Source of the DNA: Maribacter polysiphoniae | Lineage (GTDB): Bacteria > Bacteroidota > Bacteroidia > Flavobacteriales > Flavobacteriaceae | Length of the DNA stretch: 64,000 bases | Reading direction: 5' to 3' | NCBI RefSeq assembly: GCF_003148665.1 | Contig: NZ_QGGQ01000002.1 | Span: 248,001 to 312,000 of the forward strand | Part shown: one piece after another, positions 3,001 through 27,026 of the stretch | Layout: each line of letters opens with the position of its first letter | Numbering within the stretch: position 1 is the first letter of the stretch | Notes under the pieces: generated by a model | Told to the model about the DNA's origin: nothing | What the model saw: only the letters and a program-made list of their open reading frames with translations | Database searches by the model: none | Program-made: the position numbers and the translations under genes

Positions 3001-6000
3001 GTCTCACACCGATATTGTTTGCGCCGATTCCGCTACCTCAACATTAACGATAATAGCAAGCGGAGGTACAGCTCCCTACGAATATAGTTTAGATGGTGGC
3101 ACGACCTACCAAACGACGAATACATTTACCAATTTGGGTGGCGGTTCCTACACGATTACCGTTAGGGATTCTAGTGGATCTGCAACATCAAGATGTATTG
3201 GAACGCAAGAGTATGAGATAGACCAACCTTTTAGATTGACAGCTTCCGCCGCAATTGTAGAAGATGCTTCCTGTGATCCTTCGGGAGCCTTGGTTAAAAT
3301 ATTAAATCCAAATGGCGGTCAAGCTCCATACACCTATAGTTTTGATGGCGGTTCCAATTATAACGGTACAAATGAACAACGACTGACAGCAGGTACTTAC
3401 AACCTATCCATAAAGGATAACCTAGGTTGTACTTATGACATGGACATCACCGTAGACGCCCCAATGGCCGATCCAAGTTTCACTAATGATATCGATTATA
3501 ACTGTGATGGATCGGGCACAATAACCATTACTCCGAGCAATACTACGGACTTTAGCTACACCTATAGTCTAAATAGCACGGACAACACCCCTGTGGATAA
3601 TAACATATTCAATAATGTAGCTCCTGGAACACATACGGTTACCGTAGGGTATTCCAGCGCTATTACACCTAGCCAAAGCACCCTTTTCTTGGAGGATTTT
3701 GGAACAGGAATAACCACTAAAATAGGGGAAATAGGCCCAGGATATTGTTACGAACCGCAAGATGGCACTGATACTCCTTGCAATTTAGGTCCTGCCGGTA
3801 TTTTGGTCAATGGCGAATACGCGGTCACGCATACGGTTACCAACCCTAATACATCATGGAGAACACCTAACGACCATACCGGCTTAACGGATGGTAGGTT
3901 CATGGCCATTGGGGTAAGTACCTCAGCAGGCAATAACAATGTTTTATGGTCCAGAACCGGATTGGAAGTACTGTCAAACCAAGATATTACAATTTCCTTT
4001 TATGCATATAACTTATTAAGAAACGGTGTTTCGGGCAATGACCCTGAAGTACTTGTAGAACTAGTGGATGCTTCCGGAACTTTAATCAGTAGCGCTGCCA
4101 CTTCGGCAATTCCTCAAAATAACGATGCCGATGATTGGCATCTACGGGAGGTCACCTTTAATCCCGGAGCAAATACGGTTGTTGGCGTTGTATTACGTAC
4201 CAACTTGGATAGCGACGATGGTAACTTCCTGGTTTTGGATGACATCCAAGCTTCCCAAATTCCAGAAGTCTGTGAAACATCCCAGGACCTTACCATTATC
4301 GTTGAAGACAACAAAGAGTTTACTGTCAGCATTTTAGGTAGTACCGACCCAACGTGTAATGGTGACACCGATGGTAGCATCAGGTTTGAAGTGAAGAATT
4401 TCGATACGGCCACAGGTTATGAATATTCAACGGATGGCGGAACTACTTGGACTACAGAAACTGCAGCCATCGTCACTACACCTTCAACATTGGCAGACGG
4501 CATATATGATATAATGGTTCGTAAGGTAAGTGACAATACCTGTACGGCAACTTCGGCCACATCGGTTACGTTGACCGCTCCGACGGCTATTGTTCCCGAT
4601 TTGCAACAAACAGCCGAATATACATGCTTCAATACAGGGGCCACTTTAGAGGCTTCCGCTACTGGGGGCACACCGGGATATGAATATCAATTGGAAGATA
4701 CTTCGGGCACCCCTGTGGTAACTTATCAAACCAATGCGGCCTTTAACAATATTACCGATGGTGACTACCTAATACGTGTAAAGGACGCCAACGGTTGTGA
4801 GGTACTTTCAACAGCAACGGTTACCGTTTCCACCCCGGAAACAATAGATTTCGACCCAACATTCACAACTTGTTATGATGGAGGAAACAATGCCACCATT
4901 ACGGTTGATGTGACTTCGGGCAATGGTGACTACACCTTTAGAATCAATAATGGTGGATGGGTTACTCCTGCATCAGCCACTCCAACGACATATACATTTA
5001 CAGGTTTGACCAACGGGACATATACGATTGATGTAGATGACACTTTTGGTTGTGGACCAGTACAAAAAACAATCGTCATACAACCTAATTTAAATGCTAC
5101 CGTGGATGTCATGGATGTTAGTTCTTGTGGAGATGGCAACATTACGGTTACAGCCAGTGGTGGTGACGGAAACTTGGCGTATGCCTTTGTTCCGACAACA
5201 ACCCCTGTAACAGCAGTAGATTTTAGTGCTACAAGCACATTTGCAGTTGCAGCGGCAGATACTGGCGCGTATGATGTTTATGTATGGGACAACGGTGCAG
5301 CGGATCCACATTGTGAATTTATGGAAACGGTCACTGTAAACCCTGCAACCCCATTAACTTTCACAGCAACGCCAACAGACCCAGAATGTCATGACGGATT
5401 GGGAAGTATTGCTGTAGAAGTTACTTCTGGTATTGCGCCTTACACTTATGAAATCATAGATTTAGATAATGGTGGCGCTTCCAATGAAACCATACCCAAT
5501 GTAATAAATAACATAAAGTCGTTTTATAATTTAACTCCGGGTGATTATACGATAAACATTTCCGATGCTAGCGGTTGTATAGTTACGACGACACCCAACA
5601 TAACCATTAATAACCCTATAGAATTAACATCTGAATATAGAGGTGTTTTACCTTCTTCTTGTTCCAGTGTGGACCCTAATGATTATGGCTTCGAGTTTTT
5701 TAACTATCCAACTACATTGGGTATGATAGAATTTAGTGCCGATGGTGGAAACACATGGGTTGCGGACAATTCTGTCCCAGGTACATCGGATAGAATAACC
5801 GGTTATTTATCAGGAGAAAACGTTGACCCGTCAATGAGGACAGTAGATGGTTCCGGAAATACTATTTGCCAAACGGATTTCCCAAGGTTCACAATCCCTT
5901 ATCCTTTGGATGATTTGGATATTAAACTAACTGCAATCGTGGTTAATTGTAATGAACTGCGAGTTAAAGTCCAAGGCACTGAAGGTACTCCCGGTTACGA

Positions 6001-9000
6001 GTATGCGTACTCTGATAATCCAGCTAATTTTGACCCTGCTACTGCAATTTGGATTGCCGGTGGCACTGAAGACGATTCATCAGGCACTACGGTCACCGTT
6101 CCTGCAGGGTACGGTAATCATACTTGGTCAAGTTTAATTCCGGGTAGAACATATATGTTTTACGTTAAAGATTTTAATGGTTGCGTACGACAAAGTAATA
6201 GAAACGTCAATGATATTATAGACCCCCTTCCATTGGATATTGATTTTACTTCTAGACCTACATGTAATGGAGCATCTAACGGCAATATAACCTATACAAT
6301 TACAGATAACGAAGCTCCTTATGGCACTGAGTTTAGATGGGAATTGTATGATATGTCCACTGGAACCGCGACGCTAGTAACTGATAGTGGAGGAAATGTA
6401 TCTTTTACATCACCTCAAGAAGTAAAATTTGACACATTGGATGAAGGGGAATACTTTATTAAGATTACAGAAATAGATGGAGGTTTAGATGCTTGTATCT
6501 CTGCTTCGGAAAACTTATTGATAGAAGAACTAAATGTTATATCGGCTGATTTAAATAAATTGCAAGATATTTCTTGTGAAAACCCTGGTCTTATCAAAGT
6601 TGATAATATCCAAGGTGGAGGAGGAACTTACACTTTCACCGTTACAGATGATTTAGGAAACCCTGTTGCAACAGGTACAACGGACAATCCTTTAGAAATA
6701 CCGGCAGGTTCGGCTGCTGGGGACTACTCAGTAAGTATTAGTGACCAATATGGTTGTTCATATCCTTTAGGAGACATAACAATGGCATTATCCGCCAATC
6801 CAACTATCAATAGTATTGAGGTTGATAATTGTAGCACATCGCCAACAATAACCATTAATACAACATTAGGTGATTCTTCAAGCTTATTATACTCTATTGA
6901 TGGAGGAACTACATATATAGACAACGGAGGTATTTTTACCAATGTAGCTGTTAACACATATACCATTTTTGTAAAAGATGGCAATGGCTGTACGGACTCC
7001 GGCACCATTGAAGTATACCCAACACTGCAAGCTACGGCAACTTTAGAAGAAAATCTAGGATGCACCAATGATGCGGAAATTTTAATCAGTGCTTCAGAAG
7101 GTTCTGGTAGTTATGAGTACAAAATCGAAGACTCAGGAAGTACGGAAGTTGTTCCAAGAACAGCATTTACCACACCTGTTACCGCTATGGTAACAGTAGC
7201 TGACACATATACCATTACTGTTTACGATACGAATACCGCAACACCGCAATGTGAGCGCGTATTGACGGTAAATGTGCCAATTGCGATTCAACCTGACTTT
7301 ACCGCTACCCCAACAGATGTAACATGTAATGGTTCTTCCGATGGTATCATAAAAATTGCGGAGGTAAATAATGGAAACAATCCGTTAAATTATACGATAA
7401 CACCCAACAACGCTACGTATGACCCCGTAACCAATTCGTTCTCTGGTTTACCTGGTGACAGTTACCTAGTAACCGGTACAGGGCCAAATGGTTGTACAAC
7501 AATCCAAACTATTGTCGTAGGAGAGCCTAATGTTATTACTTTCGATACGCCAGACGTAAATCAATTTGGTTGTTCCACAGACAATACGACGGACAACGCT
7601 ACTATTGTTTTAGACGAAACAAGTATAGTAGGTGGTAGTTTAACGTATTCCCGTTACGAGTTTGAGGATGTGGCAACAGGTACTATATTGCAAAGTGGAT
7701 CAACTGCATCATATATGTATACGGATTATGCCGGTGGTGATGTGATTGTCCGTGTTTTTGATGATAAAGGATGTAGTGCAGCACAAACAGTTACTGTAAA
7801 TGCTTATGACCCCTTCATTTCGGCTTCAGCAGATGTAATTACCCAAATCAGTTGCGCCACTACGAATACTGGTGAAGCAATTAGGGTGGATGTTACGACT
7901 AACAGTACCACATACACTGCAAATCCCGGACATTTTGAATATAGGTTATTACCTTCAGGAACGGCACAGGCCTCCAATATTTTTCCAGATTTACAAGTCG
8001 GGACCCATACGATAGAAATAACCAATACAACGACGGGATGTTCAATCACAACGGATCATGTTGTTGAAGAACCCAATACGTTCGACATAACCGTTGATGT
8101 ATTGTCCAATGTTGTTTGCTTTGGTGATGACGGCAGTATCCAAATAACCTTCGCGGATGACACCTATGCCGGGGATTTTGCGTGGGAAGTCCTAAATACT
8201 GATGGTACTTCAACAAGTAGAACCGATGACGAAGGCGTATACGCTGGCACCGGAACATCTGCCGCTATACCCGTGGCCGCAGGTAATTACATCGTTAGAG
8301 CCGTACAAGTGGCATTCCCGGAATGTAGCCAGGAACGTACATTTACGATTACAACACCAGAAGCGGCAATAACGTTGGATACCATAGAAACCTCCAATGT
8401 AGGATGCTCCAATAGTGAAGGCACGGCCAAAATCACCCCTCTTGGAGGCAAAGCTTTATATGACATCGTTTTAACCAATACCAACACCAGTTCCGTTTAC
8501 AATGGCCTTCAAGTGAACGCTAATCTTTTCAAAGGGTTGGAAGCCGGTCATTATGATGTTCAGGTCACGGATGCGCTTGGATGTTCCCAGATCTTTACGG
8601 ATGCCTTTGAGCTCGTAGAACCGGATGCCCTAACAGGTACGATTACAAATACCGAATTAGTGTGTACCGGCGACACAGACGCTTCGGTTTCTTTTATAAT
8701 CGACCCAACAAGAAATGTAAGTCCGAATTATAGCTACAGCCTTAATACCTATGACGATGCGGCAGGCACGACACTCTTGCGTAACGCTGCAGCCCAGACA
8801 AGCCCTGATTTCCATAATCTTAGTGCCGGCTTCTACAGTATTAGTGTTACGGATGATATTGGTTGTGCACACGAAACCGCAATTGTTGAAATTGTAGAGC
8901 CAACAGATGTCGATGCCCTATTAATTACGGAAACTCCCAATAGTTGCCTTACAGGAGCAGACCTTTTACTTGTTGCTTCCGGTGGAACGGCCCCTTATAC

Positions 9001-10627
9001 CTGGAGTGAGGATGGTATTACTTACAACAGCATGAACGAGACCAATGGTACAGATACCAACCTGTTCCAAAATATGGCTGTTGGCAATTATAGTTATTAT
9101 GTTAAAGATGACTTCAATTGTGTATCCGTTATTTCCAACGAAATAACCGTAAACGCTATTGAAGATTTGACCATGACCTTGGATACCTCAGCAGCGACCG
9201 TAAATTGTTCCGGTGATAGTTCCGCTTTGATCATAGCGGATGCGGATGGTGGACTTGGTAGTTATCAATATGCTTTATTTGGGGATGCTACATTGACTAC
9301 GGAAATAAGGGCGAACCAAAATGATGGAACCTTTGCCGACCTGCCAAGTGGAACGTATTATGTAAGGGTTCAAAGTAGGGATTGTGAAATCGTGTCTGAA
9401 GCAATTGTAATTGAAGAGCCTATACCGCTTACCTTGGATTATGAAATAACGGATGTTACCTGTAATGGGGAAGATAATGGTAGTATTGTTATAAACTTAA
9501 GCGGAGGTACAGGGGATTACTTATATGCAATTTCCCCAAATCTCAATCAATTTGTAGATGAGAATACTTTTGATGAATTAAGCCCGGGTGATTATACGGT
9601 AATTGCCCAAGACGGTTTGGGTTGTTATGAAGTAATTGAATTTACGATAACAGAACCAACGATTCTAGAGATGGATTACACCGTTCAGAACGAAATATGT
9701 TTTGAGAGCAGCGATGGTTCAATCACTTTGGACATAACCGGGGGCACCGCACCGTACTTTACAAGTTTGAATTCTAACGAATCCGGTGATTTTGTCCAAG
9801 ATAAACTTTTATATGAAAACCTTTCGGCAGGTTACTATACCGTATACATAAAAGATGCCAATGGTTGTACAACCAATGATTTAATCAACGTTGAAGTAGG
9901 TGCCAACCTCAATGCCACAACTGAGGTCATCTATGAATGTACCGGTGACACCCCTAACAATAGCCTTAGTATTGCCTTAGAGGATGAAAGTGTTAGTGGT
10001 GATGTACTTTATGCATTGGATTCCACTGATCCCGCAGACTTTGTACTAGAACCCAACTTCACTGATATGACTGCTGGGGACCACTACCTAACAATAGCAC
10101 ATGCCAATGGCTGTCTACGCACTTTTGATTTTGAAGTAATCGGCTACACAGCCTTGACACTCGTTACAACCCAGGAAGGCATTAATGAAATAACGGCCTA
10201 TGCTTCTGGCGGAAAAGAGGATTACACCTACTATTTTGATGGCGTGGAAAATGGTGATGACAATACTTTTATGATCAATAGAACGGATACTTATGAAGTA
10301 CGTGTCGTTGATGAAAATGGTTGTGAAGCAATTTCAGAAATTTACATCGAATTCATTGATATTGAGATTCCAAATTTCTTTACTCCGGATGGTGATGGCA
10401 CTAGGGATATGTGGACCCCTATCAACATAGAAATTTATCCTGACATCTTCATAAAGATATATGACCGATACGGTCGTATCATCTACCGGTTCAAAGACAA
10501 TCAAGATGGATGGGACGGTCTTTATAACAACACCGAATTACCCTCAGGTGATTATTGGTACATAATAAAACTAAATGGTGAAGCGGATGAAAGGGAATTT
10601 GTTGGCCACTTTACATTATACCGATAG
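2..10627 (+). CDS. Giant T9SS-exported SprB-repeat surface protein (5' end outside window)
   Basis: The frame is open from the first bases of the window, 30 codons before the first possible start (TTG at 92), so the gene is truncated by the window edge; 3541 residues are visible. In order: the end of a DUF11 domain (to about 200), a thrombospondin-type-3 calcium-binding Asp-rich stretch (230-316), a jelly-roll/carbohydrate-binding-like domain (317-810), a second Asp-rich stretch (826-940), another DUF11-like domain (about 1010-1500), then roughly 28 SprB-like repeats (2400-10300), each with a Cys-x-(G/D) start and often a GGTxPYxY core. A second jelly-roll-like insertion sits at about 3680-4290. 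The end (10365-10624) is a T9SS type B (CHU_C) sorting domain with FTPDGDG, YDRYG and GDYWY motifs. SprB-type proteins are secreted adhesins, some carried by the gliding machinery; the role of this one in gliding, adhesion or glycan binding is inference. Confidence 0.93.
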   Translation, partial: LTLVKGSTTTGTWNGSVWNIGTLEPGEPAFLELEVVGDEIDIEPLINVTNTVSHTQDQVDENITEDILSASIIVHNDFDHDGVVDIVDVDDDNDGIYDSDECEGAFCFESIINESFEDPDVSNFSILNESSVPGWYTTATDKKIEIWESGFLGVNSYDGNQHVELNANNYGALYQNLCLTPGTEMSWSVRHRGRAGTDKMQLRIGGDLASATVQETMTTDNTAWVLYSGTYTVPVGQTNTVFVFEAISTANSSISIGNFIDDVKINILVPENCIDSDGDGYPNNIDLDSDDDGCTDADEFYKDNSADGDDGGEYGTGIPAVDSNSGAVIDASYTLVLAPEIDLGNTTEDLGTNDINGQEIGLGDTFDYVLRFQNTGNDNVTGFTIRDVLPSNVSVDNVDLSGASNTVTYNHDPVSNIITFQIPDNLVEVNDPKYTIRITVTLSSNCSEFVNACSDTIENFAYSTYQGVTNTNTYSDEPGSTLTPTCSSTTSVATNSLLNDLENCNIARTVQLCGDDVILSAGTGFASYKWALDTNGNSKIDATETVIDDGDPDGDPSTLLITEIGNYIVEKSGATGCADLVELITVERFGTTQTNPILSYFNRVNSDANPDNDLQGQIVNCSIDGSEIPQIFLCGENDDATLQLGITDADSIVWQQLDETSCTDIGDDCANTNSGCTWNNIIEQDNYTVTDSGKYRVVINYKNGCFSRFYFNVFKNTLDIKYISSDILCNTLGNIRITNPGTDYGFQLVNATTNSIVTPFSDNNGPNFDITTSGTYKVQITTLDPITGDPIDNACIFETEDIGIQEMDYEVNIETTPADCSGFGTISIQALNVLPDYTYELRLDDGTNSGAGTFFQEKVAIEDNTYTFNSVPAGDYIVITTTEDGCTDSQNITVDEYPTLNLTASVSENITCNSGMITLTPSGGNPDPNYDMAIWSIGGVGLYASPEDVPASELQTTNDFVFTDSSDANDYVFIVFDDNGCSSLSNSVTLQDLGPVTISASHTDIVCADSATSTLTIIASGGTAPYEYSLDGGTTYQTTNTFTNLGGGSYTITVRDSSGSATSRCIGTQEYEIDQPFRLTASAAIVEDASCDPSGALVKILNPNGGQAPYTYSFDGGSNYNGTNEQRLTAGTYNLSIKDNLGCTYDMDITVDAPMADPSFTNDIDYNCDGSGTITITPSNTTDFSYTYSLNSTDNTPVDNNIFNNVAPGTHTVTVGYSSAITPSQSTLFLEDFGTGITTKIGEIGPGYCYEPQDGTDTPCNLGPAGILVNGEYAVTHTVTNPNTSWRTPNDHTGLTDGRFMAIGVSTSAGNNNVLWSRTGLEVLSNQDITISFYAYNLLRNGVSGNDPEVLVELVDASGTLISSAATSAIPQNNDADDWHLREVTFNPGANTVVGVVLRTNLDSDDGNFLVLDDIQASQIPEVCETSQDLTIIVEDNKEFTVSILGSTDPTCNGDTDGSIRFEVKNFDTATGYEYSTDGGTTWTTETAAIVTTPSTLADGIYDIMVRKVSDNTCTATSATSVTLTAPTAIVPDLQQTAEYTCFNTGATLEASATGGTPGYEYQLEDTSGTPVVTYQTNAAFNNITDGDYLIRVKDANGCEVLSTATVTVSTPETIDFDPTFTTCYDGGNNATITVDVTSGNGDYTFRINNGGWVTPASATPTTYTFTGLTNGTYTIDVDDTFGCGPVQKTIVIQPNLNATVDVMDVSSCGDGNITVTASGGDGNLAYAFVPTTTPVTAVDFSATSTFAVAAADTGAYDVYVWDNGAADPHCEFMETVTVNPATPLTFTATPTDPECHDGLGSIAVEVTSGIAPYTYEIIDLDNGGASNETIPNVINNIKSFYNLTPGDYTINISDASGCIVTTTPNITINNPIELTSEYRGVLPSSCSSVDPNDYGFEFFNYPTTLGMIEFSADGGNTWVADNSVPGTSDRITGYLSGENVDPSMRTVDGSGNTICQTDFPRFTIPYPLDDLDIKLTAIVVNCNELRVKVQGTEGTPGYEYAYSDNPANFDPATAIWIAGGTEDDSSGTTVTVPAGYGNHTWSSLIPGRTYMFYVKDFNGCVRQSNRNVNDIIDPLPLDIDFTSRPTCNGASNGNITYTITDNEAPYGTEFRWELYDMSTGTATLVTDSGGNVSFTSPQEVKFDTLDEGEYFIKITEIDGGLDACISASENLLIEELNVISADLNKLQDISCENPGLIKVDNIQGGGGTYTFTVTDDLGNPVATGTTDNPLEIPAGSAAGDYSVSISDQYGCSYPLGDITMALSANPTINSIEVDNCSTSPTITINTTLGDSSSLLYSIDGGTTYIDNGGIFTNVAVNTYTIFVKDGNGCTDSGTIEVYPTLQATATLEENLGCTNDAEILISASEGSGSYEYKIEDSGSTEVVPRTAFTTPVTAMVTVADTYTITVYDTNTATPQCERVLTVNVPIAIQPDFTATPTDVTCNGSSDGIIKIAEVNNGNNPLNYTITPNNATYDPVTNSFSGLPGDSYLVTGTGPNGCTTIQTIVVGEPNVITFDTPDVNQFGCSTDNTTDNATIVLDETSIVGGSLTYSRYEFEDVATGTILQSGSTASYMYTDYAGGDVIVRVFDDKGCSAAQTVTVNAYDPFISASADVITQISCATTNTGEAIRVDVTTNSTTYTANPGHFEYRLLPSGTAQASNIFPDLQVGTHTIEITNTTTGCSITTDHVVEEPNTFDITVDVLSNVVCFGDDGSIQITFADDTYAGDFAWEVLNTDGTSTSRTDDEGVYAGTGTSAAIPVAAGNYIVRAVQVAFPECSQERTFTITTPEAAITLDTIETSNVGCSNSEGTAKITPLGGKALYDIVLTNTNTSSVYNGLQVNANLFKGLEAGHYDVQVTDALGCSQIFTDAFELVEPDALTGTITNTELVCTGDTDASVSFIIDPTRNVSPNYSYSLNTYDDAAGTTLLRNAAAQTSPDFHNLSAGFYSISVTDDIGCAHETAIVEIVEPTDVDALLITETPNSCLTGADLLLVASGGTAPYTWSEDGITYNSMNETNGTDTNLFQNMAVGNYSYYVKDDFNCVSVISNEITVNAIEDLTMTLDTSAATVNCSGDSSALIIADADGGLGSYQYALFGDATLTTEIRANQNDGTFADLPSGTYYVRVQSRDCEIVSEAIVIEEPIPLTLDYEITDVTCNGEDNGSIVINLSGGTGDYLYAISPNLNQFVDENTFDELSPGDYTVIAQDGLGCYEVIEFTITEPTILEMDYTVQNEICFESSDGSITLDITGGTAPYFTSLNSNESGDFVQDKLLYENLSAGYYTVYIKDANGCTTNDLINVEVGANLNATTEVIYECTGDTPNNSLSIALEDESVSGDVLYALDSTDPADFVLEPNFTDMTAGDHYLTIAHANGCLRTFDFEVIGYTALTLVTTQEGINEITAYASGGKEDYTYYFDGVENGDDNTFMINRTDTYEVRVVDENGCEAISEIYIEFIDIEIPNFFTPDGDGTRDMWTPINIEIYPDIFIKIYDRYGRIIYRFKDNQDGWDGLYNNTELPSGDYWYIIKLNGEADEREFVGHFTLYR

Positions 10628-18747: not shown

Positions 18748-19086
18748 TTATGCACCTGCAATCCTAATGGGTATGGTGTATATTTCACCTTCCTTGAAAT
18801 CGTCGATTTCAATTTTCTGGTAGTTCAATCTTGCCTTTACAAAAATTTCGATTTTTTCACGATCAGTATCCACGGATAAAACCACGATCTCCCCTTGTTT
18901 ATTCAGGGTAAACCTCACTTGGGCAGTTAAATCAACGTAATCACTGGTAAAAGACGTGTTTTCCAAAAGTTCACCTATCTGGACAGACAGTTGTTTTAAT
19001 GAATTGCCTTTTTCCGGATTGTTGGCAAAAATGTTTCCTGTAAAAAGTAGCATTGCAGCTACAAATACCAAACTTAATTTTTTCAT
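18748..19086 (-). CDS. Small exported protein P1 (paralogue of the gene at 26682)
   Basis: 112 residues with a clear signal peptide (MKKLSLVFVAAMLLFTGNIFA). The mature part (about 90 residues) has two features shared with the protein encoded at 26682-27026: a central AxVRxxxxKxxxxxxLSxxTD strand pair and a C-terminal FxxGxxYxIPIxxA. The pattern (AQVRFTLNKQGEIVVLSVDTD, then GEIYTIPIRI) recalls a TonB C-terminal-like alpha/beta unit, but no TonB box or membrane anchor is present. Both paralogues lie about 200 bp downstream of a sucC 3' end, one real and one a remnant. Periplasmic; function unknown. Confidence 0.75.
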   Translation of the reverse strand: MKKLSLVFVAAMLLFTGNIFANNPEKGNSLKQLSVQIGELLENTSFTSDYVDLTAQVRFTLNKQGEIVVLSVDTDREKIEIFVKARLNYQKIEIDDFKEGEIYTIPIRIAGA

Positions 19087-19523: not shown

Positions 19524-19985
19524 TCACCTTTCAAAATTTATGTGACGACTCATTTTCTCTTCTACGGAAATAAAGGATTCTATTTCCCTAATACCCTCTA
19601 TCGTAAGTATGGATTCCTGAAAAAGTACCCTATAATGAATACTATCCTTTGCGTGTACCTTAATGAAAACATCATACTTTCCCGTGCTGTGATGAATTTT
19701 AACAACTTCAGGAATTTCAGCCAATTCTTCCATTACCGTTTTGTACAAAAAACTTTCTCGCAAATAAATCCCTAAGAAAACGGTCATTTTATAACCCATT
19801 TTACTATAATCCAGACTTAACGTAGCCCCTTTTATCACCCCCATATTCCGCATCTTTCTTGTTCTCATATGCACGGTACCCGGAGATATACCTGCCTTTT
19901 TCGCAACTTCCGTATATGGCATTTGTGCATCGCCCGATAATAGCGTCAATATTTTATGGTCCACTGAATCAAGTTTATCCCTCAT
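19524..19985 (-). CDS. Lrp/AsnC family transcriptional regulator
   Basis: 153 residues: N-terminal winged helix-turn-helix (about 5-55, DHKILTLLSGDAQMPYTEVAKKAGIS then GTVHMRTRKMRNMGVIKGA) and C-terminal RAM/AsnC ligand domain (about 65-145, STGKYDVFIKVHAKD). Lrp/AsnC proteins sense amino acids and control their uptake and breakdown. It is divergent from the TonB receptor at 20544 across a 558-bp AT-rich spacer and is the only regulator inside the repeat-flanked block, so it probably controls that block; this is inference from position. Confidence 0.92.
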   Translation of the reverse strand: MRDKLDSVDHKILTLLSGDAQMPYTEVAKKAGISPGTVHMRTRKMRNMGVIKGATLSLDYSKMGYKMTVFLGIYLRESFLYKTVMEELAEIPEVVKIHHSTGKYDVFIKVHAKDSIHYRVLFQESILTIEGIREIESFISVEEKMSRHINFER

Positions 19986-20543
19986 AGGCAGTCTTTTACT
20001 TGGTTGGTTCTTTTTCTACAAATGCTACAACACCCTAAAACAACTTTAATTGATTAAAATATTTTGCATTTAATTCATTGTTTAGTTCTTTTAAGTAAAA
20101 ATAGTTCAATGTTTTTAAACTAACTGATTATATTCATTAATATATTGGCTCTTTTTATGAATATAATTAAATTTTCATTGCTTGAAATTTTTAATGCCAT
20201 AAAAGTATATTTTGAAATGATTTTCTACACATCGTTAGGTTTTTAGCGAAAAAAAAGCAAAAGCTGACTAATTGATATAAAAAAGATGTTTTATTGTCGA
20301 TTTGTTTATTTTTTGACCTATATCTATCTATTTTTCAGTGTTTTACAATGTATCCCCATTTTTTTTTATCAAAAAGTCACCCTAATATTGTCCTATCATT
20401 TCGTCATAATAATTGATGATTGATATAGTCAAGTATCCGGAACTTTTCTTTTGATAAGCATTTGACCACCGTTCCCCCAATTAATAGGACCAGGTGTGGT
20501 TGGACAAATGAATACTGTTTAGTATCAACCAAAACACGCACTT
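19986..20543. other. AT-rich divergent regulatory region (558 bp)
   Basis: Lies between the divergently transcribed Lrp/AsnC gene and TonB receptor gene. It is strikingly AT-rich (hand counts of two 60-base rows give about 20% and 23% GC). TTTG at 20461-20464, 19-20 nt before TAGGACCA, is a weak candidate receptor promoter; on the other strand TAGCATTTG lies near the lrp start. No open frame above about 30 codons looks real. Its length suggests several regulator sites. Confidence 0.45.
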
Positions 20544-23492
20544 ATGAAGAAAGCTCTAACACTATCATTCCTCTTGTTGAACTGTATATATATATCATTC
20601 GGTCAAGAGAAGACCATTACCGGTAAAGTAATAGACGAAGAAGGTATTGTATTACCAGGTACTGACATTATAATAAAAGGTACCACAAAGGGAGCTACTA
20701 CGAATTTCGATGGGGAATTCACTATAGATGCGCCAGCCGATGCGATTCTAATCTTCGCATCCCTAGGATATAAAACCACAGAAATACCCATTTCAGGCAA
20801 GGCAACCATCAATGTCACTCTTGCCCAAGCCGCAGAGCAGCTACTTGAAACCATTGTTATAGGATCAAGGGGACAGCCCAGGACGAAATTGAACACCCCA
20901 GTACCTGTTGATGTCATCGACATTAAGAAGGAAGCCATCAATATGCCCCAGCAAGACCTATCACAAATGTTAGCCGCATCAGCACCCTCCTTTACCGCAT
21001 ACACTAGTGGCGGAGGTGACCTATCATCCTTTGTTAGTCCACCCAGTCTTAGAGGATTGGCCCCTAATCAGATGCTGGTTTTGGTAAATGGAAAAAGAAG
21101 ACATACCTCCGCCATTTTATCCTCATCGCAAACAGGGACAGCATCTAATGCAGTTGACATGAAATTCATTCCATCCATAGGCATCGACCATATTGAAATA
21201 CTAAGGGACGGGGCTTCGGCCCAATACGGTTCCGATGCGATTGCAGGTGTAATCAATATCGTAACCAAGAAAGGAACAGGGGAATTTACAGGAACATTAA
21301 CCGTAGGTGGCTACCCTAATAAATCACCTGACTTCAGTGATTCTGACCTAACCGATGGCGAAAAGGCCCTAAACCGTTCCTCAGGCGATTGGGATGGTTT
21401 TAATTTTCAATTTGATGGCAACTACGGCATTGAATTTGAAAACGGAGGATTCTTCAATGTTTCCGCATTAATAAGTCAATCAGAACGTACCATACGACCT
21501 ACGGTTCTCGAGATAGACAGAGCCCCCTTATACAGTTCCAATTACCTAAACAATGAAACGACGGATGTTAGCGGAAGACCCGTTATAACAAACCCAGAGT
21601 TGGTGGCTGCCCAAGCAAGCGGCGATGCCGCGTCCATAAGTTCCCTCACAACGGTAGAGGGCCTCATGGCAGCAAGGGATATTGAACAAGTAGATGTCGC
21701 CACTTATTCCGGAATGCCGGCCAAGACACTCATGGGCTTTGCCTTTAATCTTGAAAATCCGTTGAGTGAAACTTCGGATTTTTATGCTTTTGGTGATTTC
21801 GGTTATCAATATTCAGATGCTTACAGTTGCTTTTACAGAAGGGCTGCCCAAGCAGATCGAACTAGTTTTGAACTTTACCCCAATGGTTTTAGACCACAAA
21901 TTTATACCGATCAATACAACCTATCCTTATCCACTGGAATTACCGGCGAGCTTGGAGAATTTGATTTTGACCTCAGTAATAGTTTTGGAATGAACTCAGC
22001 CAAATACGGTATGTTCAATACATGGAACGCTAGTATAGGCACCGGCTCTCCTACTGAAATGAATTTGGGTACACATAGCTTTTTACAGAATACGCTTAAC
22101 CTTGATTTCACCAACTATTATGAGGATATATTAAATGGACTTAATCTGGCCTTCGGCGGTGAGTTAAGGGTCGAAAATTACGCTATTGTCGCAGGTCAGG
22201 AAGAAAGCTGGACTGCCGGATCCGCTGGCGTGGTAACCGCTACAGAGGATAACCAAGCCCTTGTTGGCCCAGACGGATTTCCCTTGGAGGATTTAAACGC
22301 CAATCCTATTGTAGATGGTACTGGCGCTGCCGTCGTGCTTCCTTACGCAGGAGTAAGCCAGGAACTGGTTAAGAACTACGCCTTAAACTGCCAGTGCTTT
22401 CGTGGGTTTGCCCCCGAAAATGAAAGTAATAGCTTTCGTTCTGTGATGGCCGCTTATATGGATATGGAACTAGATGTTACTGAAGCCTTTTTGGTTTCAG
22501 GAGCCCTAAGAATGGAAAACTATTCAGATTTCGGAAATGTGGTTACCGGGAAAGTGGCCGCAAGGTATTCCATCGGAGATAATTTTGCTTTTCGTGGATC
22601 ATTTAGTAGTGGTTTCAGGGCTCCTTCCCTTCAAGAACTTAACTATTCACACAGTTATACGTTTTTCGTGGGCTTAGAGCCATTTGACGGAACCCTTTAC
22701 CAAAATAACAGTTCTGCAGCAAGAACTTTGGGCGTAGGACAGTTACAAGAAGAGAGGTCTCGAAATTTCAGCCTAGGATTCACGACCAAAATAGGGAAGC
22801 TTAACTTCACTTTGGATGCTTATAAAATCGACATATTCGATAGGATCTTCGAAACAGGTGAATTCGATGCTGGGCAGGCCCCTGTACTTTCACCGATTAT
22901 AGGAAGCGGTCTTGCCAGTTTCAGGATAAATGGCGGGGATATCAGTACCAAAGGTATCGAGGCTGTTCTTAATTACAACACCCATATTGGTGCCGGTAAA
23001 TTGGGCGCTACCCTATCGGGAACATTCAGAAAGAATAAATTCGAAGGCGTTAACCTACCCGATCTTAACACGAACCTTTCCGACGAAGAACTCGCCGATA
23101 ACTACGTAAACCGAAGCCTTATCGGTCAATTTGAAACCGGCACACCGAGCGGCAAGCTTATCGGCACGGTCAATTATTCCATTGGCAAGTTTTCTGCCAT
23201 GCTACGAGGTACTAGATATGGGTCTGTACAAACGAGGGACAGCCGTGAAAGAACACTATTGGACGGAAGTACAGGATACGCGGATCAATATTTTACACCA
23301 GAATTCACCACCGATATTGGGATCACTTATAACATTAACGATAAAATCAGCCTAACCGTTGGTGGCAACAACATCTTCAATGAATACCCTGAGATCATTA
23401 GATATGAACTCAGAACCTTCAATCTATATTCCAACTATCAGCAAGGATCATCCGGAGCCTATTATTTTGGTAGGATAAGCTTCACACTATAA
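20544..23492 (+). CDS. TonB-dependent outer-membrane receptor
   Basis: 982 residues: signal peptide (to about 20, ending SFG-Q), carboxypeptidase-regulatory-like beta-sandwich (about 23-105: ITGKVIDEEGIVLPGTDIII), plug (about 115-235, with LVNGKRRHTS and [20 protein letters not shown]), then a 22-strand-type barrel ending in an aromatic/Leu residue (YFGRISFTL). It imports a ligand too large or scarce for porins, using TonB energy. The architecture is the iron-complex-receptor kind, not SusC, and no SusD partner follows. The next gene, 32 nt downstream, encodes a lipoprotein, then an exported aminotransferase, which argues for an amino compound as ligand. A paralogue lies at 38758-41652. Confidence 0.93.
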   Translation: MKKALTLSFLLLNCIYISFGQEKTITGKVIDEEGIVLPGTDIIIKGTTKGATTNFDGEFTIDAPADAILIFASLGYKTTEIPISGKATINVTLAQAAEQLLETIVIGSRGQPRTKLNTPVPVDVIDIKKEAINMPQQDLSQMLAASAPSFTAYTSGGGDLSSFVSPPSLRGLAPNQMLVLVNGKRRHTSAILSSSQTGTASNAVDMKFIPSIGIDHIEILRDGASAQYGSDAIAGVINIVTKKGTGEFTGTLTVGGYPNKSPDFSDSDLTDGEKALNRSSGDWDGFNFQFDGNYGIEFENGGFFNVSALISQSERTIRPTVLEIDRAPLYSSNYLNNETTDVSGRPVITNPELVAAQASGDAASISSLTTVEGLMAARDIEQVDVATYSGMPAKTLMGFAFNLENPLSETSDFYAFGDFGYQYSDAYSCFYRRAAQADRTSFELYPNGFRPQIYTDQYNLSLSTGITGELGEFDFDLSNSFGMNSAKYGMFNTWNASIGTGSPTEMNLGTHSFLQNTLNLDFTNYYEDILNGLNLAFGGELRVENYAIVAGQEESWTAGSAGVVTATEDNQALVGPDGFPLEDLNANPIVDGTGAAVVLPYAGVSQELVKNYALNCQCFRGFAPENESNSFRSVMAAYMDMELDVTEAFLVSGALRMENYSDFGNVVTGKVAARYSIGDNFAFRGSFSSGFRAPSLQELNYSHSYTFFVGLEPFDGTLYQNNSSAARTLGVGQLQEERSRNFSLGFTTKIGKLNFTLDAYKIDIFDRIFETGEFDAGQAPVLSPIIGSGLASFRINGGDISTKGIEAVLNYNTHIGAGKLGATLSGTFRKNKFEGVNLPDLNTNLSDEELADNYVNRSLIGQFETGTPSGKLIGTVNYSIGKFSAMLRGTRYGSVQTRDSRERTLLDGSTGYADQYFTPEFTTDIGITYNINDKISLTVGGNNIFNEYPEIIRYELRTFNLYSNYQQGSSGAYYFGRISFTL

Positions 23493-23524
23493 AAATCGGT
23501 GAAACCATTAAAGAAGATAAAATT

Positions 23525-24025
23525 ATGAGAAATAATATAAAAAATATCATAGTAGCAATAATAGTGACTGCCAGTCTAATTTCTTGTGAACAAGAGCGGT
23601 TAGACCCAGTTTTAACCACGGCCGAAGGAGGGGGAACCCTTACCGAATATATGGCGTATACCATAGCCTCTACCGACCCTGGTGGATCGAACGTAAATGG
23701 AAGAATTGTTTTTTGGAAAGACAATTTAGACCGAACCCTTGTACAAATCTCCTTGTACAACACCATTCCAGGCATAAAACATCCTGCTTTGATGATGGAC
23801 GGCCCTGTGGGTGACGATACGGCAACAACCTTAGAATTGGATGTTGTTTCCGGGGATAGCGGAGAGTTAGACACCAATAAATTCCATATCATCGCCGATA
23901 CGGAATTTTACACCTCCCTACCTACAATGGATGTGCACTTAAATATCCTTATGAGCGAGAGCGACAATACCATAATCGCTACAGGTAACTTAGGAATCAA
24001 CACGGAACCCGTAGAAACAAATTAA
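23525..24025 (+). CDS. CHRD-like lipoprotein
   Basis: 166 residues with a lipoprotein signal (IVTASLIS-C, Cys21). The mature part resembles a CHRD-type beta domain: NGRIVFWKDNLDRTLVQISL, a GIKHPALMMDGP segment where CHRD domains have the PxHIHxG turn, ELDVVSGDSGELD, and a final DVHLNILMSESDN...IATGNLGIN. The His of the usual HIH motif is largely lost. It lies 32 nt after the TonB receptor gene and 28 nt before the aminotransferase gene, so it probably belongs to the same transcript and outer-membrane uptake system. The CHRD assignment is tentative. Confidence 0.65.
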   Translation: MRNNIKNIIVAIIVTASLISCEQERLDPVLTTAEGGGTLTEYMAYTIASTDPGGSNVNGRIVFWKDNLDRTLVQISLYNTIPGIKHPALMMDGPVGDDTATTLELDVVSGDSGELDTNKFHIIADTEFYTSLPTMDVHLNILMSESDNTIIATGNLGINTEPVETN

Positions 24026-24053
24026 ACTTTTCACCTTAAATACATACAACATT

Positions 24054-25253
24054 ATGAACACATTAAACAGAAGAACATGGTTGAAACGAGGAATGTTAAC
24101 CGCAGCTGGGGCTGTTGTTGTTCCACACGTTACGTTTGGCAATACCATAGGTAAAACCAAGGGAAAGACAATCCTCTTGAACACAAAGAACCAATCATTG
24201 TATAGTCCTTTTTTCAAAGAGCATAATGCAGATATTTTCCCGGATACCGTAAAGTTATTGGCCAAACTTAACGCTAATGAAAACCCTTACGGTCCATCAC
24301 CAAAGGCCATTGAAGCTTTTAAAAACACCGCCCATATGGGCAACAGATATGCTTGGAAGGAGCTTTTTGATTTGATGGAAAAAATAGCTGTACAAGAAAA
24401 AGTTACGGCCAAGAATATTATGATGGGACCAGGTTCCTCCGATTTACTGGAAAAAACCGCCATGGTCCTTTTCGCTAATGGTGGCAATGTCGTATCTGCC
24501 GACCCATCGTATATGTCATTGATCAAGGTAGCTGAAGCTTGTGGGGCTTCATGGAAACCCGTTCCCCTTAAAAAAGATTGGTCCCACGATTTAAAAGCTA
24601 TGGAAGCAGCGATAGATAACGATACGAAATTGGTCTATATCTGCAATCCCAACAATCCGACCGGAAGCATGACCGATCATGCAGAACTAATCGATTTCTG
24701 CTCGCGTGTCTCAGAAAAAGTTACGGTTTTCATTGATGAAGCATATTTGGGCTTTTTGGAAGATGCAGAAAAGAAAAGCATGGTCTCCCTTATAAACCAA
24801 GGAAAAGATGTGATTATAGCACGCACATTCTCAAAGATCCACGGTATGGCAGGGTTACGCTTGGGATACATAGTTGCCCAAGAAACAACATTGGATAAAA
24901 TCCAGAAAATCACCCGTGGTGGAATGGGCATCTCGTACCCCACAATATTTGCCGCATCAGTAAGCATGGACGATGTTGCATTTCAGAACAAATCAAGAAA
25001 ACTAAATGCCGAATGCAGGGAATATGTTTACACCACCTTAAAGCAAATGGGGTATAGCTATGTACCTTCCTCCACCAGCTTTATTCTATTCCCTATTGAG
25101 ATGGAAGGCAAGGCTTTTCTTGAAAAAATGACAGCACTCCAGGTAGGTGTCCGCGCCTTTGACATCATGGGTAAAAATTGGTGTAGGGTAAGTATGGGTA
25201 CCATGGACGAAATGAAACTCTTTAGCAATGCCTTGCAAAAAGTGCTTGTTTAA
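24054..25253 (+). CDS. Exported (Tat-signal) PLP-dependent aminotransferase, HisC-like fold type I
   Basis: 399 residues. The N-terminus reads NRRTWLKRGMLTAAGAVVVP, a twin-arginine motif (R6-R7) followed by a hydrophobic stretch, so the folded enzyme is probably exported to the periplasm. The body is a class I/II aminotransferase: KLNANENPYGPSPKA at 71-85, CNPNNPTG at 197-204, the PLP-contacting Asp228 and Tyr231 in FIDEAYLGF, Schiff-base Lys261 in ARTFSKIHGMAGLRLGY, and Arg269 for the substrate carboxylate. The closest class is histidinol-phosphate aminotransferase, but no his genes are nearby and biosynthetic HisC is cytoplasmic. Context points to transamination or another PLP reaction on an imported amino compound. 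Confidence 0.9.
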   Translation: MNTLNRRTWLKRGMLTAAGAVVVPHVTFGNTIGKTKGKTILLNTKNQSLYSPFFKEHNADIFPDTVKLLAKLNANENPYGPSPKAIEAFKNTAHMGNRYAWKELFDLMEKIAVQEKVTAKNIMMGPGSSDLLEKTAMVLFANGGNVVSADPSYMSLIKVAEACGASWKPVPLKKDWSHDLKAMEAAIDNDTKLVYICNPNNPTGSMTDHAELIDFCSRVSEKVTVFIDEAYLGFLEDAEKKSMVSLINQGKDVIIARTFSKIHGMAGLRLGYIVAQETTLDKIQKITRGGMGISYPTIFAASVSMDDVAFQNKSRKLNAECREYVYTTLKQMGYSYVPSSTSFILFPIEMEGKAFLEKMTALQVGVRAFDIMGKNWCRVSMGTMDEMKLFSNALQKVLV

Positions 25254-25255
25254 TA

Positions 25256-25321
25256 AATTGGCCCAGAGGGCGGAATTAACGCCAATTGCTTTGATGCTAA
25301 TACTCTTGCTCTCGTTGGGCC
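25256..25321 (+). promoter_or_regulatory. Competing hairpins between aminotransferase and AEC transporter genes
   Basis: AATTGGC (25256-25262) can pair with GCCAATT (25281-25287), while the overlapping GGCCCA (25260-25265) can pair with TGGGCC (25316-25321), which is followed by TTTATAATT. The two pairings are mutually exclusive. This may be only a leaky terminator; an attenuator is a possibility. Confidence 0.35.
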
Positions 25322-25372
25322 TTTATAATTAAAATATTAACTGAAAATCAAGAACCTTTAATTGAATAATCC

Positions 25373-26524
25373 ATGAATTTCGCCCTGCAGAATACATTAG
25401 AACTATTGTTGGTCATAGGATTAGGTTTCCTCTTGCAGCAAAAAGTCGCCAAACAAGATCTGAAGGGGGTTAAAGTACTCATATTGAGCATCGCCCTTCC
25501 TGCAGTTATCTTTGTCGCATTGTTGAAAATTAAGCTGGATAGCTCTTTACTGATATTTCCAATTTTGGCGTTGGCATTCAATCTGATTATGTTGGCGGCA
25601 TCAAAATATATTCTTGCCATCTCCCTTTCAAAAAAGGACAGCGCTAAAAAACGCACGATAATGATGTTGCTTCCTTCACTGGCACCAGGACTCTCCTGTT
25701 TCCCCTTTTTAGCCATCTATATCAATGACGATTCCTTGGCGCTTGCCGCGTTGGCCGATGTAGGCAATAAAATCTTTGTTCTTATAATGCTCTATATGAT
25801 GGCCATGAATTGGTATCATCTTAGATCGGCAATGGACAGTAAACCTTCCACCTCGAATAAACTCAAAAGCTTAGGGCTCGCCCTACTTAAAGAACCGATA
25901 AACATGGTTTTGATTGTGGGGTTACTACTATTGACTTTTGGTTTTAACTTGGATTCCCTACCTATTTTCATGAAGAACACCGTACTAAGTGTAAAAACTA
26001 TAATGACCCCATTGGTTTTATTGTTCATAGGTATGGCAGTACGTATAAATTCAGGTGAATTCGGGCTTATTCTCTCCCTTTTGATACGCCGATCGGGCAT
26101 CACTTTTCTGTTAACCGGATTTTTTGTCGCACTTTTCCCGGCACTATCAACCCCTTTGATCCTCTTACTAGTGGTTTTTCCGCAAAGCGCCTGCAGCTTT
26201 TGGCCTTTTGCCCATATGAGTGCCGTGGGTAGCATGGAAGAAAATGACAACCAATCGAACCCGACGTTTGATATTAATTTTGCCGTTAACATCTTAGCCT
26301 GCTCGCTACCGTTTTCCACAGTGTTGATTATTGGTATATTTTCATTTAGTGAATACTTTATAAATCCCACTATATTGATATTGTCCGGTGTAGGCATGAC
26401 CGTTGTTTCATTTATTCCTTACCTGATCAAAAAGATAAAAACCATTAAAAAACCCGAGATATCCGGTCAATACAATACATACCTTGGTTTGAATACGAAC
26501 TCCCAACCAACCGAAGAAAATTAA
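25373..26524 (+). CDS. AEC family (auxin efflux carrier-like) transporter
   Basis: 383 residues with about ten hydrophobic helices and the AEC-family pattern LLVIGLGFLLQQK at the N-terminus, a central hydrophilic linker (about 150-170), and helix pairs in the second half (NMVLIVGLLLLTFG, TPLVLLFIGMAVRI). Bacterial AEC members move organic acids and amino-acid-derived compounds across the inner membrane. It follows the aminotransferase by 119 nt on the same strand and so could carry that enzyme's product or substrate. It ends with a soluble tail of about 30 residues. Confidence 0.82.
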   Translation: MNFALQNTLELLLVIGLGFLLQQKVAKQDLKGVKVLILSIALPAVIFVALLKIKLDSSLLIFPILALAFNLIMLAASKYILAISLSKKDSAKKRTIMMLLPSLAPGLSCFPFLAIYINDDSLALAALADVGNKIFVLIMLYMMAMNWYHLRSAMDSKPSTSNKLKSLGLALLKEPINMVLIVGLLLLTFGFNLDSLPIFMKNTVLSVKTIMTPLVLLFIGMAVRINSGEFGLILSLLIRRSGITFLLTGFFVALFPALSTPLILLLVVFPQSACSFWPFAHMSAVGSMEENDNQSNPTFDINFAVNILACSLPFSTVLIIGIFSFSEYFINPTILILSGVGMTVVSFIPYLIKKIKTIKKPEISGQYNTYLGLNTNSQPTEEN

Positions 26525-26681: not shown

Positions 26682-27026
26682 TTACTTTTTCGCTACTTCA
26701 ATAGGAATCCTATATACAACACCCTGTTCAAAGGTACCTTTTGATAGTCTTTCAAAATCTATAGCGCTTTTGATATAACTTTTAAGGGCTTCATTATCTG
26801 TCTCAATGGACAATATCCTTAAATAATTACCCTTATCGACCGCCATGCGGACTTCTGCCTTTGACCCCCTAATTTCATCTGGAATTGAAAATTCACCAAG
26901 CATATGGTGGATTTGCGAAGTCAGAAATTTAGCCGCTTTGGGCTCATGATTTTCAGGGGTACTGGCCGTACCATAATTGACACCTAACAGCATCACTAGA
27001 ATTAAGGTATAAAATGCTTTTTTCAT
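26682..27026 (-). CDS. Small exported protein P2 (paralogue of the gene at 18748)
   Basis: 114 residues with a signal peptide (MKKAFYTLILVMLLGVNYGTA). The mature part shares with P1 the AEVRMAVDKGNYLRILSIETD strand pair and the closing FEQGVVYRIPIEVA; overall identity looks like 25-30% by eye. It lies 219 bp downstream of the sucC terminator repeat, the same relative position P1 holds to the sucC remnant. Periplasmic; function unknown. Confidence 0.75.
   Translation of the reverse strand: MKKAFYTLILVMLLGVNYGTASTPENHEPKAAKFLTSQIHHMLGEFSIPDEIRGSKAEVRMAVDKGNYLRILSIETDNEALKSYIKSAIDFERLSKGTFEQGVVYRIPIEVAKK

Follow-up and report, generated by a model that had tools for sequence, protein, structure and literature searches.

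The 64,000-nucleotide (nt) stretch of Maribacter polysiphoniae DNA analyzed here (the window; contig NZ_QGGQ01000002.1, positions 248,001 to 312,000) encodes, between its positions 19524 and 26524, a candidate system that joins an aminotransferase carrying a predicted export signal to an inner-membrane carrier. A gene for an Lrp/AsnC-type regulator (19524-19985, minus strand) is divergent from the gene for a TonB-dependent receptor with a CarboxypepD_reg-like N-terminal domain (20544-23492, plus strand), both assigned from the list of open reading frames (ORFs) and Pfam. The receptor gene is followed on the plus strand by genes for a small lipoprotein (23525-24025; ORF list, alignment and structure model), with Ser-Cys at residues 20-21 and a predicted β-sandwich like that of copper-zinc superoxide dismutase (CuZn SOD); for a HisC-like pyridoxal phosphate (PLP) aminotransferase (24054-25253; Aminotran_1_2 Pfam match), in which alignment places a twin-arginine signal region at residues 1-29 (24054-24140); and for its partner, a carrier predicted to adopt the fold of auxin efflux carrier (AEC) and PIN proteins (25373-26524; AlphaFold model and structure alignment). 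Gaps of 32, 28 and 119 nt separate these four genes in turn. Between regulator and receptor, alignment of 20 upstream regions marks two features on the plus strand, a promoter-like TAATATTG box (20383-20390) and a near-palindrome, AAGTATCCGGAACTT (20431-20445), which is a candidate operator of the receptor operon. A preliminary description of the window had listed the same five reading frames, and each was found where it had been placed, with the 32 and 28 nt gaps borne out.

Inspection of related loci reveals that the conserved core unit is the aminotransferase together with the carrier encoded downstream. Relatives were drawn from three sets of sequences. In a family sample of 199 genomes, 45 hold an aminotransferase match at E ≤ 1e-60, and 23 genomes form the orthologue group (at least 48% identity, E ≤ 1e-100; one copy, in genome G150, is broken), as distinct from a lower group at 40% identity or below. 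A phylum draw comprises 395 genomes and has 4 carrier-bearing genomes in common with the family sample. The 80 named loci, 1.61 megabases (Mb) in total, are the best 80 of at least 586 confirmed matches, and several come from the same species as carrier-bearing sampled genomes. The carrier gene lies directly downstream of the aminotransferase gene in 21 of 22 sampled-genome relatives and in 74 of the 80 named loci, where 35 of the pairs overlap or stand no more than 10 nt apart by mechanically assigned ORF starts. Locus L079 ends at a contig end, with a carrier starting 11 nt downstream of the enzyme; four others (L128, L130, L132 and L133) are second enzyme copies, each from a Dyadobacter genome that also has an enzyme-carrier pair elsewhere; in the L133 genome the carrier of that pair has an internal stop.

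Seen from the carrier side, the pair was never found broken in the sampled genomes, an observation that is new here. A carrier profile matched 22 of the 199 family genomes, all within the 23 that hold the enzyme (G196 being the exception) and all adjacent to it, and 9 of the 395 phylum genomes, all 9 beside a twin-arginine aminotransferase. All 8 phylum genomes whose enzyme scores above 500 bits are among those 9; the ninth is one of the 17 that hold weaker copies. Across both samples the carrier subfamily occurs in 27 distinct genomes, and because every match adjoins a twin-arginine aminotransferase, no carrier was seen apart from the enzyme within these samples and thresholds. In G150 (locus L060), a genome that is 86% complete, the enzyme gene is split into two ORFs and the carrier has one internal stop, which reflects either joint decay or poor sequence.

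Some arrangements around carrier-less copies were also recorded. Six loci (L061, L063-L066 and L068) hold lower-identity twin-arginine aminotransferases that have no adjacent carrier and lie near a conserved small gene, some of them also with genes that we read as 5-oxoprolinase-subunit-like and NRAMP-like transporter genes. Upstream of the carrier-less second Dyadobacter aminotransferase in L128 and L130 lies a PLP-type protein whose leader carries, by eye, a twin arginine (Pfam on L130).

The preliminary description had treated all five genes as one unit and had named a gene order conserved nowhere else as grounds for refutation. The order recurs in 6 of the 22 sampled-genome relatives and in 17 of the 80 named loci, two sets that share species, and the arrangement is therefore not due to chance. 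The unit as drawn proved too large, since its core is the aminotransferase and carrier, and the receptor and lipoprotein are optional (19 of 80 named loci). The interpretation offered there is thus partly supported: gene order and twin-arginine retention hold, and the five-gene extent does not.

Retention of the signal is evident at every level of comparison. In an alignment of 22 rows (the window and 21 of its 22 relatives), R6 and R7 of the twin-arginine translocation (Tat) motif are invariant. All 80 named loci carry the twin arginine, 77 of them by the strict RR pattern (a pattern used without a control protein set) and one as RRNVLK; of the two that remain, one has its RR at an internal start and the other, whose gene is frameshifted, has it in the first frame. 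Within the lower-identity group, all 10 copies read carry a twin-arginine segment, one of them behind an overlong ORF start, and RR is present at 26 of 29 loci in the phylum draw. TatC is encoded in all 23 family genomes with an orthologue. Since the twin arginine is kept across relatives and TatC is present in all 23 genomes, Tat export of the aminotransferase is strongly predicted. The enzyme also shows the feature by which PtaA-like periplasmic transaminases are recognized in sequence, a twin-arginine signal on a PLP transaminase fold.

The enzyme itself matches Aminotran_1_2 at 4e-51 and falls below the cut-off of each transaminase model it resembles. Its best NCBIfam match is PRK09105 (NF006580) at 277.6 bits, under the cut-off of 444, so that membership of that subfamily is not assigned; hisC (TIGR01141) follows at 249.5 bits, under 276.55, and PtaA (NF051461) at 219.1 bits, under 500. 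Among weaker matches, threonine-phosphate decarboxylase scores 149.6 bits and the cyclodehydratase GntC 124.8 bits, and the nearest Protein Data Bank (PDB) sequence is 3ly1, a putative HisC (2.2e-47). A second enzyme in the same genome passes the hisC cut-off at 351.1 bits, with neighbors that we take to be hisD and hisB. Given the score below the hisC cut-off and this separate hisC, the aminotransferase is a distinct enzyme, and an identity as the biosynthetic HisC is ruled out. The PLP-binding residues named in the preliminary description (K261, D228, Y231 and R269) are invariant in all 22 aligned rows, as is R378. Two further residues, F54 and E56, are invariant in a segment preceding the core and were not seen by eye in lower-identity relatives. 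Among plasmid records, 12 hold relatives of the enzyme at 32-34% identity and none holds closer kin.

The carrier is recognized mainly by its predicted structure. An AlphaFold model built from 34 sequences (predicted local distance difference test score, pLDDT, 82.7) aligned best to the PIN domain of LYCHOS (Z 24.6, root-mean-square deviation (rmsd) 3.6 over 312 residues), then to PIN8 (Z 21.4) and the wider NhaA/ASBT/SbtA folds (Z 15-21); Foldseek TM-scores for the same matches are approximately 0.5-0.6 by query length. Weak matches to Mem_trans (PF03547) in 20 of the 34 carrier family members at E ≤ 1, the best at 1.6e-5, agree with an AEC/PIN-type fold. A search for solved relatives by sequence profile returned none at E ≤ 10. 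The name "AEC carrier" used earlier for this protein is borne out by the predicted fold; the window copy misses the AEC profile of Pfam, and a search of the window's whole genome with PF03547 gave no match. AEC family carriers move organic acids, and by analogy with that family the natural guess is that this one would move small organic anions.

Two kinds of outer-membrane importer join the pair. The window's receptor matches Plug (7.7e-17), a barrel domain (4.4e-28) and CarbopepD_reg_2 (4.5e-14), and its sequence matches in the PDB are partial, lie mostly in the plug region and name no ligand. Among the 80 named loci, 19 have receptor and lipoprotein genes beside the pair, and 17 of these 19 also have the divergent Lrp gene; the spacing is tight in all 19 (-1 to 35 nt from receptor to lipoprotein, 25 to 35 nt from lipoprotein to enzyme). 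In another 13 loci, SusC/SusD-type genes and a different small lipoprotein-like gene take the place of this module; they stay linked to the pair where inverted (L115 and L139) or where the small gene has moved (Runella), and the representative locus L120 has Pfam matches to TonB receptor and SusD-like domains. The receptor label, traced on a tree of 95 enzyme rows, requires three changes, at least two of them forced by well-supported branches, as counted against the other labelled rows only. The outer-membrane modules are optional and exchangeable, a second observation that is new here, and the recruitment of two importer kinds to one pair is the main support for a role in uptake.

Within the receptor module, the lipoprotein falls into no family of Pfam or NCBIfam at E ≤ 0.001. 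Residues S20-C21 are invariant in 19 of 19 aligned rows. Its model (pLDDT 83.5) had a best Foldseek E-value of 2.3e-3, with none at 0.001, and aligned by VIA-align to CuZn SOD with Z 12.0 and rmsd 2.6 over 110 residues. Histidine fills one column in all 19 rows and a second in 13 of them; the window copy has three histidines. The metal-ligand histidines of CuZn SOD are thus not kept. We infer that the lipoprotein is a surface ligand-binding partner of the receptor.

Several neighboring genes were noted as possible substrate clues. In seven Dyadobacter loci (L119, L120, L122, L123, L126, L136 and L141) a carbon-nitrogen hydrolase-cluster gene lies upstream of the cassette and a peptidyl-arginine-deiminase-type cluster gene downstream of it (Pfam on L120 only), and genes of these two types are neighbors in Flaviramulus L129; a link to agmatine or arginine is possible. 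D. frigoris L121 instead has amidohydrolase and M20 peptidase genes. These are leads only, because one genus weighs little. The same seven Dyadobacter loci carry a gene for a small secreted protein (190-200 residues) after the carrier, the L120 copy giving a weak, sub-cut-off match to a Hint module.

The regulator matches the two domains by which Lrp/AsnC proteins are recognized, AsnC_trans_reg (PF01037, 1e-14) and HTH_AsnC-type (PF13404, 5.6e-13), and its distribution follows that of the receptor module. A close orthologue (65-100% identity) is present in exactly 7 of the 23 genomes, those with the receptor module beside the pair, and the other 16 hold regulator matches of 38-46% identity only, at E ≤ 1e-30. 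The regulators that Zobellia galactanivorans induces on algal polysaccharides include members of the AsnC/Lrp type, according to a source whose excerpted text leaves the locus unnamed (PMC5613140).

Alignment of the 20 receptor upstream regions (the window and the 19 named loci) shows the TAATATTG box, which may be a Bacteroidota -7 element, to be largely conserved. The near-palindrome stands approximately 100 nt before the receptor. Allowing at most one substitution, AAGTNTCCGGANCTT occurs at 17 of the 19 named receptor loci, with no other occurrence in the 1.61 Mb of the 80 loci; as these receptor loci were the source of the motif, the test lies in its absence elsewhere and not in its presence. 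Cellulophaga L087 has a shortened variant. The window's 5.13 Mb genome holds one exact match to AAGTNTCCGGAACTT and one further site at one mismatch, and at two mismatches 37 further sites compared with 128 for a reversed control. The 23 genomes yield 6 exact matches, all between regulator and receptor; of the 7 genomes that have the module, 6 hold one each. One-mismatch sites in these genomes are overall no commoner than those of reversed patterns, controls that cover one- and two-mismatch matches and leave the exact-match counts standing on their own. Only exact matches were given weight for this reason, and the near-palindrome was rejected as a general genome motif. The simplest reading of these patterns is that a dedicated Lrp protein would act at a single near-palindromic site. 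The predicted pairing of a dedicated regulator with a candidate operator that is exact only once in the genome is the third feature that is new here. An RNA leader or riboswitch for the receptor was also considered and rejected, as no Rfam match at gathering score was obtained in the window and the receptor leader folds in an ordinary manner (z -0.49).

To our knowledge, few periplasmic transaminases are known. The excerpted text of PMC6206403 describes PtaA of Pseudomonas as a PLP transaminase that is carried folded through Tat and acts in the periplasm on the glutamate of pyoverdine, which it converts to α-ketoglutarate, and it states that PLP must somehow be regenerated there. With this precedent, we read the locus as a periplasmic transamination module with a Tat-exported enzyme, a dedicated oxo-acid carrier and, in the window's lineage, a receptor feed, a reading to which we would give about an even chance. 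The aminotransferase would fold with PLP in the cytoplasm, exit through Tat and act in the periplasm, a location suggested by the conserved signal, TatC and the PtaA precedent. Each periplasmic turnover would have to be supplied with a 2-oxo acid and relieved of an amino acid, or vice versa, without access to the cytoplasmic pool, and the paired carrier would take the oxo-acid partner through the inner membrane. We judge it somewhat likelier that the deaminated product is imported than that an acceptor is exported, both of which fit the evidence here. In the window's lineage, the TonB receptor and small lipoprotein would admit an amino-bearing substrate through the outer membrane, and the dedicated Lrp/AsnC regulator would control the operon, probably through the near-palindrome at 20431-20445.

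On this reading enzyme and carrier would together run transamination across the inner membrane, because the constant partner is an organic-acid-type carrier and because PtaA offers a precedent. A bolder reading is an inner-membrane transamination shuttle, in which the carrier supplies an oxo acid to the periplasm or exchanges it for another and the exported enzyme strips or swaps amino groups outside the cytoplasm. We consider the shuttle unlikely. Were it true, the nitrogen and the carbon skeleton of one nutrient would enter separately, and the system would be a dedicated answer to periplasmic cofactor recycling, distinct from PtaA.

Several observations weigh against the periplasmic transamination module or parts of it. 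The enzyme occurs without the carrier in genome G196 (none at E ≤ 1e-10), in 16 of the 17 phylum genomes with weaker copies and in L145, a metagenome-assembled genome that is the only one among the 80 named loci to lack a carrier in its genome at E ≤ 1e-10. The window's own carrier has no Pfam match at E ≤ 0.001 and none to PF03547 at E ≤ 1. RK replaces RR in 3 of the 29 phylum loci, which represent two distinct proteins. Neither importer is present in 48 of the 80 loci within the stretch examined, some of which are ended by contig ends, and uptake is for this reason perhaps not the core function. A gene set that we read as resistance-nodulation-division (RND)-type efflux precedes the pair in several Flagellimonas/Allomuricauda loci, and such neighbors fit export as well as import. 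As regards the regulator, Fulvivirga L106 has the receptor while regulator and site are both missing, and G108 has regulator and receptor with no site within 260 nt even when five substitutions are allowed.

The alternatives overlap with one another, and their probabilities need not sum to one. The enzyme may be a tailoring enzyme as in pyoverdine maturation, where a cytoplasmic product delivered to the periplasm by the carrier or another exporter has an amino group turned to a keto group there, after which the TonB receptor takes the finished compound back up. PtaA, the best characterized relative, does so to pyoverdine glutamate according to the excerpts of PMC6206403; its model matches the window enzyme, and the RND-type neighbors of some pairs would suit an exported product. 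The match nevertheless lies far under the PtaA cut-off, no biosynthetic cluster was recognized among the neighbors read by eye, in the absence of a search aimed at one, and the local Lrp/AsnC regulator and SusD-type importers suit nutrient uptake better. We hold tailoring to be improbable on balance.

A similarly low probability attaches to the view that the pair handles small amino acids that pass through porins or derive from the wall of the cell itself, and that the receptor module was added to the operon to serve a different nutrient. The 48 loci with the enzyme and neither importer are consistent with this view, as are the repeated changes of the receptor label on the tree. Against it stand the tight gaps in all 19 receptor loci and the linkage of a different importer to the pair in 13 others.

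Less probable again, in our view, is a reaction other than transamination, in which the exported PLP enzyme would belong to the lyases, decarboxylases or cyclases of the HisC/CobD-like branch and the carrier would move its product. Fold-type I sequence does not by itself fix the reaction, and threonine-phosphate decarboxylase and GntC appear among the matches beside the transaminases; the transaminase models (PRK09105, hisC and PtaA) nevertheless score higher, though below their cut-offs, and R378 is kept with the PLP residues. That the signal is non-functional and the enzyme cytoplasmic is very improbable, for while export is predicted from sequence and the two RK proteins would fit, the twin arginine is present in all 80 named loci and all 10 lower-identity relatives read, and TatC in all 23 genomes.

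Among the known systems compared is PtaA, and we rate the system at this locus as a variant of the PtaA-type periplasmic transaminase. PtaA and the window enzyme share a PLP transaminase fold and a Tat signal; the window enzyme differs in falling below the PtaA cut-off, in its pre-core region with invariant F54 and E56 and in having an AEC-fold carrier as its partner gene, no such partner being named for PtaA in the excerpted text of PMC6206403. The same excerpts describe PvdN of Pseudomonas as a Tat-exported periplasmic PLP enzyme that makes the succinamide in pyoverdine maturation. HisC shares the fold family and the nearest solved structure, 3ly1, whereas the window enzyme has an export signal and the genome has its own HisC. 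The likeness to PvdN, as another PLP enzyme with a Tat signal for the periplasm, is one of description and not of sequence, and PvdN presumably belongs to another aminotransferase class. The carrier resembles AEC/PIN carriers (PF03547; plant PIN, LYCHOS) in predicted fold and differs from them in lacking a PF03547 match in the window copy and in the occurrence of its sampled subfamily only beside the twin-arginine aminotransferase. As with SusC/SusD, a pair of which joins the cassette in 13 loci, the window's TonB receptor and lipoprotein are encoded together; in contrast, the module has a small lipoprotein of predicted SOD fold and no SusD-like protein.

The enzyme-carrier pair was not found named in openly licensed literature and may still be published elsewhere. 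The excerpts of PMC6206403 do not say by what means bound pyridoxamine is converted back to PLP once the enzyme has left the cytoplasm, and a carrier found, in the sampled genomes, only beside such an enzyme is a candidate for the missing supply line. The module would give a likely nutrient pathway to many Bacteroidota through a HisC-like gene otherwise mistakable for one of histidine biosynthesis, and the single-copy candidate operator with its dedicated regulator would offer a direct route to the inducer.

Further features lie outside the five genes. Paralogous genes for small secreted proteins of 112 and 114 residues (18748-19086 and 26682-27026, both minus strand; no Pfam match) bracket the five-gene block, likewise in several relatives, and the block may have been inserted between duplicated copies. 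At 92-10627 the window encodes a repetitive surface-type protein of 3511 residues, whose C-terminal tail resembles, by eye, those of gliding or type IX-secreted proteins.

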